NCBI RefSeq assembly: GCF_900099555.1
Contig: NZ_FMWM01000002.1
Span: 1,113,629 to 1,177,628, forward strand
DNA from: Peptoniphilus raoultii
Lineage (GTDB): Bacteria; Bacillota; Clostridia; Tissierellales; Peptoniphilaceae
Direction: 5' to 3'
Length of the DNA: 64,000 nucleotides
Under the pieces are notes generated by a model. It searched no databases, was not told the origin of the DNA, and saw nothing but the letters and a program-made list of their open reading frames with translations. This document shows, in pieces, positions 22,151-53,613 of the stretch. Numbering within the stretch: position 1 is the stretch's first letter; the number at the start of each line of letters is the position of its first letter. The position numbers were made by a program, and so were the translations under genes.

Positions 22151-22975
22151 ATGTCAGTTATATCAATGAAAAATTTATTGGAAGCCGGAGTTCACTTTGG
22201 TCACCAAACAAGAAGATGGAATCCAAAAATGGCAAAATTCATCTTCACTGAAAGAAATGGAATCTATATTATAGATTTACAAAAGACAGTTAAGAAAATT
22301 GAAGAAGCCTATGATTTTGTAAGACAAATTGCAGAAGAAGATGGAAAGATTTTATTTGTAGGTACAAAAAAACAAGCTCAAGATGCCATTGAAAAAGAAG
22401 CAAAAAAATGCGAAATGCCTTATATTAACCAAAGATGGTTAGGCGGTCTTTTAACTAACTATAAAACAATTAGAAAAAGAATCGACAGACTTTTCAAATT
22501 AATGGAAATGGAAGAAGACGGAACTTTTGACGTTCTTCCCAAAAAAGAAGTTATTAAGCTTATTCACGAAAGAGAAAGACTTGAAAAGTTCTTAGGCGGA
22601 ATTAAAGATATGGATAAGATGCCTGATGCTCTTTATATTGTAGATCCCAAAAAGGAAAGAATTGCAGTTAAAGAAGCTCATGTTTTAGGAATACCTGTAA
22701 TAGGCATTGTTGATACAAATTGTGACCCTGATGAACTTGATTTCCCAATTCCAGGAAATGATGATGCAATTAGAGCTGTAAAGTTAATTACAGAAACAAT
22801 TTCAAATGCTGTTCTTGAAGGAAAACAAGGCACTCAAAATGTAATGGAAGAAGATTCTGCAAGTGATTCTAAAGAAGAAGCAGCAGAAAATGTTGAAATT
22901 TCTGAAGAAGTAGAAATTAATATGCAAGATGCTTTAGATAATGAGCAAAATACTGAAGGAAACGAAGAAGAATAA
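22151..22975 (+). CDS. rpsB: 30S ribosomal protein S2
   Basis: 274 residues. The core is typical S2 ([46 protein letters not shown]). It carries an acidic C-terminal tail of about 40 residues (230-274, rich in E and D) beyond the usual end. GGAGG lies 5 bases before the ATG. It heads the rpsB-tsf-pyrH-frr block conserved in bacteria, with its own promoter and leader hairpin, and is followed by an intercistronic terminator. Confidence 0.97.
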
Positions 22976-22983
22976 TTTTATTT

Positions 22984-23020
22984 GGGAGTTCTAAAGCTGG
23001 TCTTTAAACTCCCTTTTTTT
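22984..23020 (+). terminator. Intercistronic terminator between rpsB and tsf
   Basis: A 12-bp stem with one bulge (22984-22990 with 23007-23013, then TAAAG/CTTTA inside) and seven T. There is no obvious promoter between it and tsf, so it probably gives partial read-through and lowers tsf output relative to rpsB. Confidence 0.8.
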
Positions 23021-23043
23021 AGATTTTAAAGGAGTGGATAAAA

Positions 23044-23694
23044 ATGAATATTAGTGCATCACAAATTAAGGAACTTAGAGAAAAAACAGGTGCTGGAATG
23101 ATGGATTGTAAAAAAGCTTTAGCTGAAAGCGATGGTAATCTTGAAAAGGCAATTGACTTTTTAAGAGAAAAAGGCCTAGCTTCAGTTGCTAAAAAATCTT
23201 CAAGAATAACTTCTGAAGGTCTTGTAGATTCTTATATTCATGGCGGAAGAATTGGTGTTTTGATTGAAGTTAATTCTGAAACCGACTTCGTTGCTAAAAA
23301 TGAAGAATTTAAATCCTTTGTAAGAGATATAGCTATGCAAGTTGCTGCTATGTCTCCAAAATATGTTACTAGGGAAGAAGTTCCTGAAAGCGAAGTTGAA
23401 CACGAAAAAGAAATTTTAACTGAACAAGCACGTCAAGAAGGAAAGCCTGACAAGATTATTGAAAAAATGGTTGAAGGTAGACTTGAAAAATTCTATGAAG
23501 AAATTGTTTTAGTTGATCAAAAATTCATTAAAGACGGGGATAAAAAAGTTTCTGATATTTTAAACGATTTAATTTCAAAAATTGGAGAAAATATTAAGAT
23601 TAGAAGATTCGTAAGATTTGAAGTTGGCGAAGGTCTTGAAAAGAAATGTGAAGATTTTGCCGAAGAAGTTGCAAAACAAATGGGTACAAACTAG
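23044..23694 (+). CDS. tsf: Elongation factor Ts
   Basis: 216 residues, shorter than the 283-300 residues usual in E. coli and Bacillus, closer to the compact type. The N-terminal UBA-like domain ([20 protein letters not shown]) and the core [10 protein letters not shown] motif that contacts EF-Tu are present. It is the guanine nucleotide exchange factor for EF-Tu. The reduced length lies in the core/dimerisation domain. GGAGTGG precedes the ATG; the following pyrH lies within 10 bases. Confidence 0.95.
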
Positions 23695-49187: not shown

Positions 49188-50240
49188 ATGAAAGATAACC
49201 TAGAAAAAAAAGAAGCCCTAGATAAGGTCATGGCTTCAATTGTTAAGCAGTTTGGTGAAGGCTCCGTAATGAAGCTTGGTGAAGGAACTAAACTTGATAT
49301 TGATTCAATTCCAACTGGTTCTCTTGCCCTTGACCTAGCTCTTGGTATTGGTGGAATTCCCAAGGGTAGAATAATTGAAATTTACGGACCTGAATCTTCA
49401 GGAAAGACAACGATAGCTCTTCATATGATTGCTGAATCACAAAAACTTGGCGGAACGGCAGCTTTTATTGATGCGGAACATGCTCTTGACCCCTCTTATG
49501 CAAAAAAACTTGGTGTAGATGTTGAAAATTTAATAATTTCTCAACCAGACACTGGTGAACAAGCCTTAGAAATTACAGAGGCCCTTGTTCGATCTAATGC
49601 AGTTGATATTGTTGTAATAGATTCAGTGGCAGCCCTAGTTCCAAAAACAGAAATTGAAGGGGAAATGGGCCAAGCAACAATTGGCCTTCAAGCAAGACTT
49701 ATGTCACAAGCTCTAAGAAAATTAACAGGTGCAATTAATAAGTCAAAGGCAGCAGTTATTTTTATTAATCAACTTAGGGAAAAGGTTGGAGTTGTTTATG
49801 GTAATCCTGAAACAACAACTGGTGGCAGGGCTTTAAAATTTTATTCTACCGTTAGACTTGATGTAAGAAGAGTTGAAATTATAAAACAAAGGGATCAAGC
49901 AGTTGGAAATAGAGTTAGGATAAGAGTTGTTAAAAATAAAGTGGCACCTCCATTTAAGGAAGCTGAAGTTGATATTATGTATGGTGCTGGCATTTCTAAA
50001 ATTGGAAATATTTTGGACGTTGCTGCTGCTTTAGAAGTTGTTAAAAAAGCAGGATCTTGGTATTCTTATAATGACGAAAAACTAGGTCAAGGTAGAGAAA
50101 AATCAAAAGAATTTTTAATAGACAATCCCGTACTTTTAAAGGAAATTGAAGATAAGGTTAGAGATTTATTAAAATCTAGTGACGAAGAAGAAAGTAAGGA
50201 AGAATTATTAAAAGAAGAAGATAAGAATTCTGATTTTTAA
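49188..50240 (+). CDS. recA: Recombinase RecA
   Basis: 350 residues. DNA strand exchange and LexA coprotease. Walker [10 protein letters not shown], Walker [16 protein letters not shown]2 loop [17 protein letters not shown] and an acidic C-terminal tail are present. No LexA-box-like site (GAAC-N4-GTTC) was found directly upstream of recA or cinA, so SOS induction may occur through a more distant promoter. recX, often next to recA, is absent; a split SbcCD-like module follows. Confidence 0.98.
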
Positions 50241-50269: not shown

Positions 50270-51247
50270 TTGAAATTTTTATATTTTACTGATACCCATA
50301 TTAGGGGAACTAATCCAAGGAACAGGCTTGATAATTTTTATGAAACCTTAAAAAATAAAATAAGGGAAGTTGTTCAAATTTCTAAAGATGAAGGGGTAGA
50401 TTATATCCTTCATGGAGGGGACTTATTTGATAGACCTGATATTTCTCTTTCAGTAGTGGGAGAATTTGCAAATATTTTAAAGGAATTTAATAAATCTATT
50501 TTTGTAATCTCTGGAAATCACGATATTTTTGGCCACAACCCCTCCACTTTAAATAGAACTGTTTTTGGACTTCTCTGTAATCTTGGAATATTAAATTTGG
50601 TAAATTATAAAAGAATAATCTTAAAAAAAGATATAAAAGTACAGCTTACTGGTTCTCCCTATGTTTATTCTATGGATTCTAGAGAAAATATTGAATCCTA
50701 TATGGTTAGGGAAAGGGATCCGGAGGCAAAGTACGCTATTCATATGACCCATGGCTTTTTAGTGGACAAGCCTTTTATAAAAGAAGTTCCGCACACATTA
50801 ATTTCTGAAATTAGGGATACTCTTGCAGATATTACTTTAGGGGCACATTTTCACTATGGTTTTAAAACTGTAAATTTAGATGGTAAATATTTTATAAATC
50901 CTGGTGCCTTAGTTAGAATTTCCAACTCTTTAAAGGAAGTTGAAAGAAGACCTAAGGTTATTATAATGGACTTAAGTGACCATATAGAAATCAAGGAAAT
51001 TTATTTAAAGTCAGCCCCTGTGGGAAATGAAGTTTTAGATAGAAGTGAAATTGAGAAGCATCAATTTAAGGGTATTAAAATTAATGAATTTAAGGAACTT
51101 ATTGATTCATCAGTAAATTTAAATAATATGGATATTTATTCATTACTTAATATAATTGCCAGCAATGAAGAAATTTCAAGCGATGTTATTGATGAAGCCT
51201 TAAAAAGAATTGAACATGTGCAAATAGATGGAGCGGATTTTGTATGA
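50270..51247 (+). CDS. SbcD/Mre11-like metallophosphoesterase (DNA nuclease)
   Basis: 325 residues from a TTG with GAGAGTGAT upstream. Calcineurin-type phosphoesterase motifs in Mre11/SbcD order: D8-x-H10 (FTDTHIRG), GGDLFD at 49-54, GNHD at 82-85, HMTHGF, and GAHFHYG. It is shorter than SbcD in that the capping domain is reduced. Its stop overlaps the next gene (ATGA), tying it to the ATPase pieces. It probably forms the nuclease subunit of an SbcCD/gp46-47-like complex. No promoter was seen, so it likely reads on from recA 29 bases upstream. Confidence 0.8.
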   Translation: MKFLYFTDTHIRGTNPRNRLDNFYETLKNKIREVVQISKDEGVDYILHGGDLFDRPDISLSVVGEFANILKEFNKSIFVISGNHDIFGHNPSTLNRTVFGLLCNLGILNLVNYKRIILKKDIKVQLTGSPYVYSMDSRENIESYMVRERDPEAKYAIHMTHGFLVDKPFIKEVPHTLISEIRDTLADITLGAHFHYGFKTVNLDGKYFINPGALVRISNSLKEVERRPKVIIMDLSDHIEIKEIYLKSAPVGNEVLDRSEIEKHQFKGIKINEFKELIDSSVNLNNMDIYSLLNIIASNEEISSDVIDEALKRIEHVQIDGADFV

Positions 51248-52692
51248 TTTATATAAAGAGAATTCATTTAGAAAATTTTCAATCCCATAAGCTGACAGAT
51301 ATGACATTTGACAAGGGTTTAAATGTTATCATTGGAAATTCCGACTCTGGAAAAACTGCAATTTTAAGAGCCATTAAATGGGCCCTTTATAATGAACCCC
51401 AAGGTGATTATTTTATTAGACAAGGCGAAGCAAAAGTTGTTGTTGAAATAGAATTTTCCAATGGAGTTGTGGTTAGAAGATTAAAATCTTCTTCTAAAAA
51501 TTTATACTATTTAAAGACAGGAGATGGAGAAGAATACCAATTTGAAGGATTTAGAAATGAGGTTCCTAGAGAAGTTTTAGAGGCAACAGGCATGTATAAG
51601 GTTGATTTTTCATCATCTAATCTTGGAATCTTAAATATTTCAGAGCAACTTGAAGGGCCGTTTTTATTAAATGAAAGCTCATCAGTTAGAGCAAATGCCA
51701 TTGGTAGGCTTGTTAGTGTCAATTATATTGACGATGCATTAAGACAAACTGTGCGTGATGACAAGAGCACTCTTTCAAAAATAAACGACCTTGAAAAAAC
51801 TAAAAAGAATTTAGAAGAAAAGATAAAGAAATTTGACTATCTTGAAGATTTAGAAAAAAAACTTAAGGCTTTAGATCAATTAAGAATAGAAATTAAGAAC
51901 AAAAGTCAGGAGTTTGATTTATTAAAATCTTATGACCAAAATTTAAATAAAATTAATTATGAGATAGATAAGGAAAGGAAAAGTCTAAGGTGTCTCCCTG
52001 ATATTGAAGTTCTATCTAATATTTATGGAAAACTACTAGCAAATATTTCCTACTATTCCTTATATGAAAATTTATTTACAAAAATAAATAAGACTGGGGA
52101 AGATATTTTAAAAACCGAAGCTTATTTAAAACATTTTATAAATAATGAATCTTTAAAGGAAATATATCTTAATCTAAAAGATGATATACTAAAACTTAGG
52201 ATAAATAAAGGTCTTTTTGAAAAACTTGAGGCAAATGAAAAAGAAATCTATGAATGTAAGTTCATTTTAAAAGATTTTGATAATATATATCCTCAAGAAA
52301 AAAATTTAAAGGACTTAGAGGAGAAAATTATTATATTAAAGACCTATAGTGATTTAAATGTAAGATTTTTACATATAGAAAAATCCATAAAAATCGGTGA
52401 AAATTATATAAAGTCCTTTGATAGTCTTAATGATTTAAATACAAATGTGACTACAATTGGACAAAAGGCAGAAAAATTAAAAGTTCTAAGAACTTTATAT
52501 AATTCTTATGAGGGCTTAAATTCAAATATTGAACTTTTAAATAAGGAAATTTCAGGCATTAATAAGGATATATCTAGTTTAACAGAGGATTATGAAAGAA
52601 TAATTATGAAGGCAGGAATTTGCCCATTTTGCTATAGCAAAATAAATGTAGAGTCTTTGAAGCATATAAAAAGTCATTTAGAGGGGGATTAA
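51244..52692 (+). CDS. SbcC/Rad50-like ATPase, N-terminal half ending in a zinc motif (split gene product)
   Basis: 482 residues. N-terminal SMC/Rad50 lobe: IHLENFQSHKL and Walker A GNSDSGKT at 31-38, with a Q-loop-like ISEQ and FLLNESSSVRANAIGRLV after it. Then comes a long coiled-coil region (about 170-450) with breaks. It ends with a cysteine pair C460-x2-C463 followed by H474 and H478, a complete CCHH-type zinc ligand set at the position where Rad50 would have its zinc hook. Signature motif, Walker B and D-loop are absent and are found two genes downstream. So the Rad50 polypeptide is cut at the hook. Confidence 0.8.
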   Translation: MIYIKRIHLENFQSHKLTDMTFDKGLNVIIGNSDSGKTAILRAIKWALYNEPQGDYFIRQGEAKVVVEIEFSNGVVVRRLKSSSKNLYYLKTGDGEEYQFEGFRNEVPREVLEATGMYKVDFSSSNLGILNISEQLEGPFLLNESSSVRANAIGRLVSVNYIDDALRQTVRDDKSTLSKINDLEKTKKNLEEKIKKFDYLEDLEKKLKALDQLRIEIKNKSQEFDLLKSYDQNLNKINYEIDKERKSLRCLPDIEVLSNIYGKLLANISYYSLYENLFTKINKTGEDILKTEAYLKHFINNESLKEIYLNLKDDILKLRINKGLFEKLEANEKEIYECKFILKDFDNIYPQEKNLKDLEEKIIILKTYSDLNVRFLHIEKSIKIGENYIKSFDSLNDLNTNVTTIGQKAEKLKVLRTLYNSYEGLNSNIELLNKEISGINKDISSLTEDYERIIMKAGICPFCYSKINVESLKHIKSHLEGD

Positions 52693-52693
52693 A

Positions 52694-52927
52694 ATGAATT
52701 ATGAAGATAATTTAAATAATTTAAAAAAACAGCTTGACAGGGCAAAGGACCTTAAATATAAAGCAGATGCAAGATTAGAAAGTTTAAAATCTCAAAAGGA
52801 AGAACTTTTAAAGGAAATCAAAAGCCAAGGAATAAACCCTGAAGATTTAGGGACACAAATTGAAAAATTAGAAGGGGAAATAAAGGATTTATTTGAAAAG
52901 GCAAATAATATGCTACCAAAGGTTTAA
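52694..52927 (+). CDS. Small coiled-coil protein of the split SbcC module
   Basis: 77 residues, starting 1 base after the N-half stop, with a GGGGG-rich ribosome site inside its end. Almost wholly heptad-like charged helix (residues 3-70, e.g. LKKQLDRAKDLKYKADARL). No catalytic motif. By position it could supply the return strand of the coiled coil, or bridge the two ATPase halves. Not a recognised family. Confidence 0.6.
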   Translation: MNYEDNLNNLKKQLDRAKDLKYKADARLESLKSQKEELLKEIKSQGINPEDLGTQIEKLEGEIKDLFEKANNMLPKV

Positions 52928-52929
52928 AG

Positions 52930-53613
52930 ATGGATATTGATTATTTAAATGGTCAAATTGAAAATATAAGAACAAAAGTTAATATAGAAAAGGGAAAGCT
53001 AGAAATTATTGAAGAGTCTTTAAAAAATACTGAAGCCGAACTGGCAGAAAAGAGAAAGTATGAAGATCTTTTAACTAAGGTCGTTATTTTATTTCAAAAG
53101 ACTGCAAGATATGCTAGAGATCAATCCAAAAGACAGATTGAAGATATAGTTTCTAAATGTCTTCAATTTATTTTTGAAACTGACATTGAATTTTTAATAG
53201 AATTAAGTGAGAAAAGATCAGTTCCCAATGCAGAATTTCTAGTTAAAAGTAGCTATGACGAGGGGTATAGTGTAGTTACAAAACCAGAAATTTCAAGGGG
53301 TGGGGGAGTTGTTGATATTATTTCAATTGCTCTAAGAATAGCCTTTATTCAAATTCACAAGCCTGAAATAGAAGGGCCTCTGATTTTAGATGAACCTGGT
53401 AAGCATGTTAGTGATGATTATATTTTTAATTTAGGAGAATTTTTAAATAAATCCTCCTCACTTTTCAATAGACAAATAATAATGGTAACTCATAATAAAC
53501 ACCTTGCCCAAATTTGTGACAAGTCCTATTCCGTTGAAATAAAAAATGGTATTTCACAAGTTTCTCTATCTTCTAATGATACAAGGGCAGGGGAAAATAA
53601 AAGAATAATTTAA
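52930..53613 (+). CDS. SbcC/Rad50-like ATPase, C-terminal half (split gene product)
   Basis: 227 residues. N-terminal coiled coil (about 1-50), then the C-terminal ABC lobe. It has a degenerate signature motif SRGGGVVDIISIALRIAF (R123-G126 glycines in place of LSGGE), Walker B LILDEP at 151-156, D-loop KHVSDD and the H-loop histidine H188 in VTHNKHL. No Walker A, which is on the separate N-half protein. It begins 2 bases after the small coiled-coil gene. Together the two halves would reconstitute one Rad50 head. Confidence 0.8.
   Translation: MDIDYLNGQIENIRTKVNIEKGKLEIIEESLKNTEAELAEKRKYEDLLTKVVILFQKTARYARDQSKRQIEDIVSKCLQFIFETDIEFLIELSEKRSVPNAEFLVKSSYDEGYSVVTKPEISRGGGVVDIISIALRIAFIQIHKPEIEGPLILDEPGKHVSDDYIFNLGEFLNKSSSLFNRQIIMVTHNKHLAQICDKSYSVEIKNGISQVSLSSNDTRAGENKRII

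Follow-up and report, generated by a model that had tools for sequence, protein, structure and literature searches.

Rad50 and other structural maintenance of chromosomes (SMC) proteins are understood as single chains in which an arm links both lobes of the head. Four genes that follow recA in Peptoniphilus raoultii, within a 64,000-nucleotide stretch of contig NZ_FMWM01000002.1 (the whole stretch analyzed, hereafter the window), raised the question of whether such a protein also exists naturally as separate chains. Based on sequence comparisons and predicted structures, we consider it highly likely that this operon encodes an Mre11-Rad50/SbcCD-type DNA-end-processing complex with a naturally split Rad50. 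The best reading of the locus is a natural Rad50 cut at its hook, with a third coil subunit, as a variant of SbcCD/Mre11-Rad50.

The genes, referred to here as mre, N, mid and C, lie in tandem on the + strand with gaps of -4, +1 and +2 nucleotides (nt). All four open reading frames (ORFs) were present as the first-pass annotation of this DNA had proposed in describing four packed genes after recA, and the Walker A, CxxC, H474/H478, Walker B and H-loop motifs that it named were located on the sequence. The features of the locus are as follows.

50270–51247, + strand: mre, Mre11/SbcD-type metallophosphoesterase, 325 amino acids (aa), TTG start (Pfam PF00149, 6.4e-13; PHROG 100; Mre11 structures 3qg5 and 1ii7).
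51244–52692, + strand: N half of Rad50, 482 aa, with lobe I (Walker A and Q-loop), a segmented helical arm and a terminal CxxC (AAA_23; PHROG 16465; AlphaFold2 (AF2) model; 1f2u chain A).
52694–52927, + strand: mid, 77-aa helix-turn-helix coil, the third component (own alignment; PHROG 18563).
52930–53613, + strand: C half of Rad50, 227 aa, with a helix of ~80 residues and then lobe II (signature, Walker B, D-loop and H-loop) (PHROG 15167; AF2 model; 1f2u chain B).
51334–51357, + strand: Walker A GNSDSGKT of the N half (from the sequence; G31, G36 and K37 invariant).
52621–52632, + strand: C460-P-F-C463 (C460-x-x-C463), zinc-hook-type knuckle of the N half, 19 residues short of its C-terminus (invariant columns).
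53296–53337, + strand: variant signature RGGGVVDIISIALR of the C half, with Gly for the canonical Ser (alignment of relatives).
53380–53397, + strand: Walker B LILDEP of the C half, followed by the D-loop GKHVSDD (alignment of relatives).
53491–53493, + strand: H-loop histidine H188 of the C half (invariant).
49188–50240, + strand: recA, 350 aa, the upstream neighbor; the order recA-then-quartet is kept in relatives.

Conservation and spread of the split

A neighbor search for the quartet among Firmicutes and phages, as the first-pass annotation had suggested, found it in many Bacillota genomes, and its N and C halves in 49 viral contigs; the viral contigs were returned by an alignment query, a single C-half protein query having found nothing. 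Strong matches to N and to C occurred in exactly the same 21 genomes of our class sample of 291 (Fisher 2e-32, kinship ignored), and four further weak C matches in this sample (E ~1e-11) were mostly in RecN-size frames. Our phylum sample of 398 genomes had C in 65 and N in 63, with 62 in common and ~26 families represented; three of these genomes (G368, G406 and G586) carried two copies of N and two of C each. The order recA-then-quartet was found in Peptoniphilus, Anaerosphaera, Tissierella, Caloramator and Lagierella. Acetivibrio-type genomes carry mre-N-mid upstream of a rimO-like gene and a lone C between folD and rny; N and C were unlinked in all five such genomes of the class sample. Relatives of C also occur on plasmids, and all 49 viral contigs that the C profile returned had N and C as separate ORFs. 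A phage origin of the system was considered as well: in a tree without the phylum-wide chromosomal copies, the chromosomal and viral C-half rows were separate.

The arrangement predicted from the window, with the Walker A and Walker B halves on separate chains cut at the hook and a small coil between them, thus recurs in relatives. Because the same cut is found in many other bacteria and phages, the split is a long-standing functional design rather than a broken gene. Ratios of non-synonymous to synonymous substitution rates (dN/dS) between close Peptoniphilus pairs were 0.00–0.11 for mre, mid and C and 0.17–0.23 for N, and all four genes are under purifying selection. Of the 21 split-system genomes in the class sample, one had a canonical SbcC (E<1e-20), versus 122 of the 270 others (kinship ignored), which suggests that the split system replaces canonical SbcC.

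Two side observations concern individual genomes. The N half is interrupted by a frameshift or stop in three single genomes (L009, L031 and L038), through either decay or an error in sequencing. In a 6.5-kb contig of Peptoniphilus harei (NZ_UATM01000018, L025), the C-yerC-rqcH region is repeated inverted, probably as an assembly artefact.

Two chains and a probable single Rad50-type head

Profile and structure comparisons assigned the two halves to complementary parts of Rad50. The N half matched Pfam AAA_23 (E 2.5e-21) and PHROG 16465 (5e-67), and lobe I was good in its AF2 model (predicted local distance difference test (pLDDT) 79.7). The C half, in which Walker A is absent, matched PHROG 15167 (2e-62), and its model (pLDDT 91.2) had 1f2t_B as best Foldseek match. 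The best solved relative of both profiles was Pyrococcus furiosus Rad50. The N model aligned to residues 1–149 of 1f2u chain A (Z 13.2) and the C model to residues 738–882 of chain B (Z 13.9), and on 3qku_A the two models covered the complementary ranges 1–135 and 186–882. The 1f2t/1f2u crystals of the P. furiosus Rad50 catalytic domain were reportedly obtained from two fragments, N and C, each encoded on its own as a laboratory construct, so assembly of a head in trans is physically possible.

A natural joined form was found in family f121, in which all 8 of 8 genomes in the sample matched a one-chain relative with lobe I and lobe II. In six of these genomes the match was a fusion of mre, lobe I and lobe II (686–702 aa in L147, L148 and L149). 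In the other two (L159 and L160) mre was separate and lobe I plus lobe II formed a RecF-sized protein of 379–382 aa. The arm, CxxC and mid were absent in the five f121 loci that we read (L147, L148, L149, L159 and L160), and the armless mre-Rad50 fusion of L148 adjoins addB. Both lobes on one chain joined via a long coiled coil were not seen in the family as sampled, the one-chain state occurring only as the armless form; there, an arm goes with the hook cut and a joined chain with no arm. Based on the matches to the Rad50 head and on the joined f121 lobes that lack arm, hook and mid, it is very probable that N and C make up one head; judged from the sequences, arm, hook and mid behave as one module. 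The proposed sharing of one ABC head by the two halves agrees with this natural form.

The nuclease belongs to the calcineurin-type phosphoesterases, with Mre11/SbcD as its closest kin by Pfam, PHROG and structure matches, and its metal and catalytic residues are intact in the alignment (D8, H10, D51, N83, H84, H161, H193 and H195). The system scored below the cut-offs of NCBIfam TIGR00619 (sbcd; 29.6 vs 77.65 bits) and TIGR00618 (sbcc; 23.7 vs 478.5 bits); for sbcc this is a weak test, as no SbcC in the 291 class genomes passed that cut-off either. In three phage contigs (L093, L095 and L111) mre is fused to N while C is still separate; these fusions indirectly support a predicted physical complex of nuclease and ATPase.

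Arm and mid subunit

The arm of the N half consists of six helices of ~37–65 residues in the AF2 model. A terminal CxxC was present in 36/37 aligned N rows, and N ended shortly past it in 48/49 viral contigs. The position of the CxxC in viral relatives ranges from residue 337 to 515, and the N half of Herbivorax is a 594-codon frame. The Herbivorax N half (L066 1501–3234) has extra, near-identical repeats of ~40 residues in its arm, which seems, from the repeats themselves, to have grown by duplication of a unit.

The mid coil has its own alignment among relatives and matched PHROG 18563 (1e-7). It was found by profile in relatives and in 42/49 viral contigs, and the divergent viral contigs that were inspected (L111, L136–L139 and L050) had small coil ORFs of 80–106 aa at the position of mid.

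Several observations weigh against reading the locus as a Mre11-Rad50-type complex. The AF2 model of the N half is uncertain past lobe I (predicted template modelling score 0.32). The ascending N arm, at ~300 aa, is about twice as long as the returning helices (mid plus ~80 aa of C). Moreover, the length of the N arm differs among relatives and that of mid and C is nearly constant; part of the arm is thus left without mid or C to pair with, and a canonical antiparallel coil over its whole length is unlikely. The signature is also affected: the degenerate form noted in the window proved to be family-wide, with Gly at the canonical Ser position in all aligned members, and an LSGG-type signature with Ser, as in Mre11-Rad50/SbcCD, was found in none of them. 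Engagement of the heads driven by ATP may differ owing to this Gly. G124, G126, D129 and S132 of the C half were invariant in 51 aligned rows, and D129 and S132 may compensate for the lost signature Ser.

Alternative explanations

A normal one-chain SbcC that has been broken in this genome, by assembly error, frameshift or decay, is one rival account of the locus, and it would fit with N and C sharing one genome reading frame and with the broken N frames in the three single relatives. We give this account almost no credence. The same cut was found in tens of genomes and in the 49 viral contigs, N and C are unlinked in five class genomes, mid is conserved and lies in another frame, and dN/dS is low; the error at 52692–52930 that had been named as a possible source of the split is contradicted by the split recurring across unrelated genomes and also where the loci of N and C are unlinked. 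Programmed frameshifting was considered as well and is excluded by the unlinked N and C loci. The unlinked loci would also suit N and C being separate working proteins (e.g., regulators of another SMC) that share no common head. However, each of the two lacks half of an ATP site, they match complementary parts of Rad50, their copy numbers match and natural one-chain forms exist, and we regard such independence as very improbable.

Instead of repair, the same complex might serve mainly in conflict with foreign DNA, as in SMC-type defence (e.g., Lamassu or Wadjet). The N half resembles LmuB across 452 residues (5e-16), and the system, or its C half, also occurs on plasmids and prophages. In contrast, the C half had no LmuB match, mre and mid matched nothing in PADLOC, and no effector gene was seen; the chromosomal site is recA/recX/rny and not a defence island, and the phage copies lie among recombination genes. 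A defence role is therefore improbable, and Lamassu, the known defence system considered, was rejected with only the N half matching LmuB in PADLOC. More serious is the suggestion that the terminal CxxC and its HxxxH form a zinc finger inside a single chain, so that the tip of the arm would bind DNA or another partner. The AF2 model gives a small knuckle and helix at the tip, HxxxH follows the CxxC in 16/37 aligned N rows, the window included, and some other rows have another His or Cys there. The first-pass annotation had proposed a combined CxxC and HxxxH zinc motif that could fill a site in one chain; the CxxC is almost universal, whereas the His pair, and with it the CCHH site, belongs to part of the family only. 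In addition, a profile match aligned the tip segment to the zinc hook of P. furiosus (1l8d). We consider the intrachain finger unlikely, though less so than a defence role, and from these alignments a zinc hook between two N chains is favored.

Proposed complex and cellular role

One head formed from two conserved chains, in partnership with the nuclease, is well supported. The stoichiometry, a zinc-bridged tip, the placement of mid and the cellular role are inferred. Lobe I of the N chain and lobe II of the C chain would come together in trans as one ABC head, and two such heads would sandwich ATP beside a dimer of the Mre11-type nuclease at the roots of the coils, in a putative 2:2:2:2 assembly. 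The N chain would run the arm outward, and its terminal CxxC probably binds zinc jointly with that of another N chain. On the way back, the stretch of helix nearest the head would come from the C chain, whereas mid probably contributes the stretch farther out or clamps the arm. The complex would likely serve to open, tether or trim DNA ends for RecA-dependent repair.

More tentatively, we propose an obligate three-chain Rad50-type motor (N, mid and C) that is open at its hook end, the tip of the arm being an assembled joint that can open. Arm, hook and mid would be an optional module that was lost together in f121, leaving an armless single-chain Mre11-Rad50.

The genes around the system bear on its role. 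In L150 and L152, the two phylum-level loci with wide flanks and a recA match, recA and rny still flank the system, and one of them has the order recA-recX-mre-N-mid-C-rny. RecX and AddB are neighbors of the system in relatives, and its phage neighbors include a Holliday-junction resolvase and UvsW-type and RecD2 helicases. These chromosomal (recA/recX/rny/addB) and phage recombination neighbors point to a role in recombination and DNA-end processing, and the system is probably linked to RecA in end processing. A repair role had been suggested from the position of the genes beside recA in place of recX; the recA/rny context is indeed conserved, but the replacement of recX is local only, and the genome has recX elsewhere (G000:C1:1320339-1320464).

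The split system and its armless relative allow direct tests of the purpose of arm and hook. It becomes testable whether the lobes need a covalent link and whether DNA passes when the hook opens. If the three-chain motor and its armless form are as proposed, a natural experiment has separated the head chemistry of Mre11-Rad50 from the function of the arm. The system also provides a likely function for genes that are unlinked or lack annotation in many Bacillota and phages.

Comparison with known systems

The quartet shares with archaeal and eukaryotic Mre11-Rad50 and with bacterial SbcCD the Rad50-type lobe I (Walker A and Q-loop) and lobe II (Walker B, D-loop and H-loop), a coil, a CxxC and an Mre11-type phosphoesterase with all its metal ligands, and its best structural matches are the Rad50 proteins of P. 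furiosus and Methanocaldococcus jannaschii. It differs in that its Rad50 is two chains, cut just past the CxxC, and in having an extra coil subunit, a Gly-for-Ser signature and arms of unequal length. As in 1f2t/1f2u, each half of the head would be a polypeptide of its own, N or C, but the split of the quartet is natural. The P. raoultii genome also has a YhaO/YhaN-like pair (G000:C1:1026883-1028701; L004 462–3750), which is similar in combining an SbcD-like nuclease (344 aa) with an SMC-like ATPase; that ATPase, however, is a single chain of 754 aa at an unrelated locus. It has a hydrophobic, membrane-like stretch.

No published description of a split Rad50/SbcC was found in the open-access literature. 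The nearest concept had been thought to be the phage gp46/47 module, and phages do carry the split system; T4 gp46/47, however, is less close a parallel than the split systems that Bacillus-type phages carry. In Bacillus phage vB_BboS-125, gp32, gp34 and gp35 correspond to PHROGs 16465, 18563 and 15167, the same three split parts, and an unannotated mre is also present. There the parts are annotated separately as an exonuclease, a hypothetical protein and an ATPase, and mre is downstream; in PHROGs, too, N, mid and C are three families with no link drawn among them. The unannotated mre (L049 6424–7401; NC_048735 about 22423–23400) lies in the interval that separates gp36 from gp37, and an AP2-domain gene (L049 4584–5156), probably a homing-type insertion, lies between N and mid.

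Yoshida et al. 2011 (PMC3175470) described SbcDC fusions; in those of Anaerostipes and Bacillus phage 0305phi8-36, one NTPase segment went unobserved. These fusions resemble our phage loci in that mre is joined to a Rad50-like part. The genome of 0305phi8-36 is 218 kb (PMC2147016), and our L095, a contig of 218,948 bases with an mre-N fusion and a separate C-half ORF, is consistent in length with being this phage, an identity that we treat as putative. Provided that it holds, the NTPase segment missing from the 0305phi8-36 SbcDC is the separate C half, which offers an answer to this loose end of the phage fusions.

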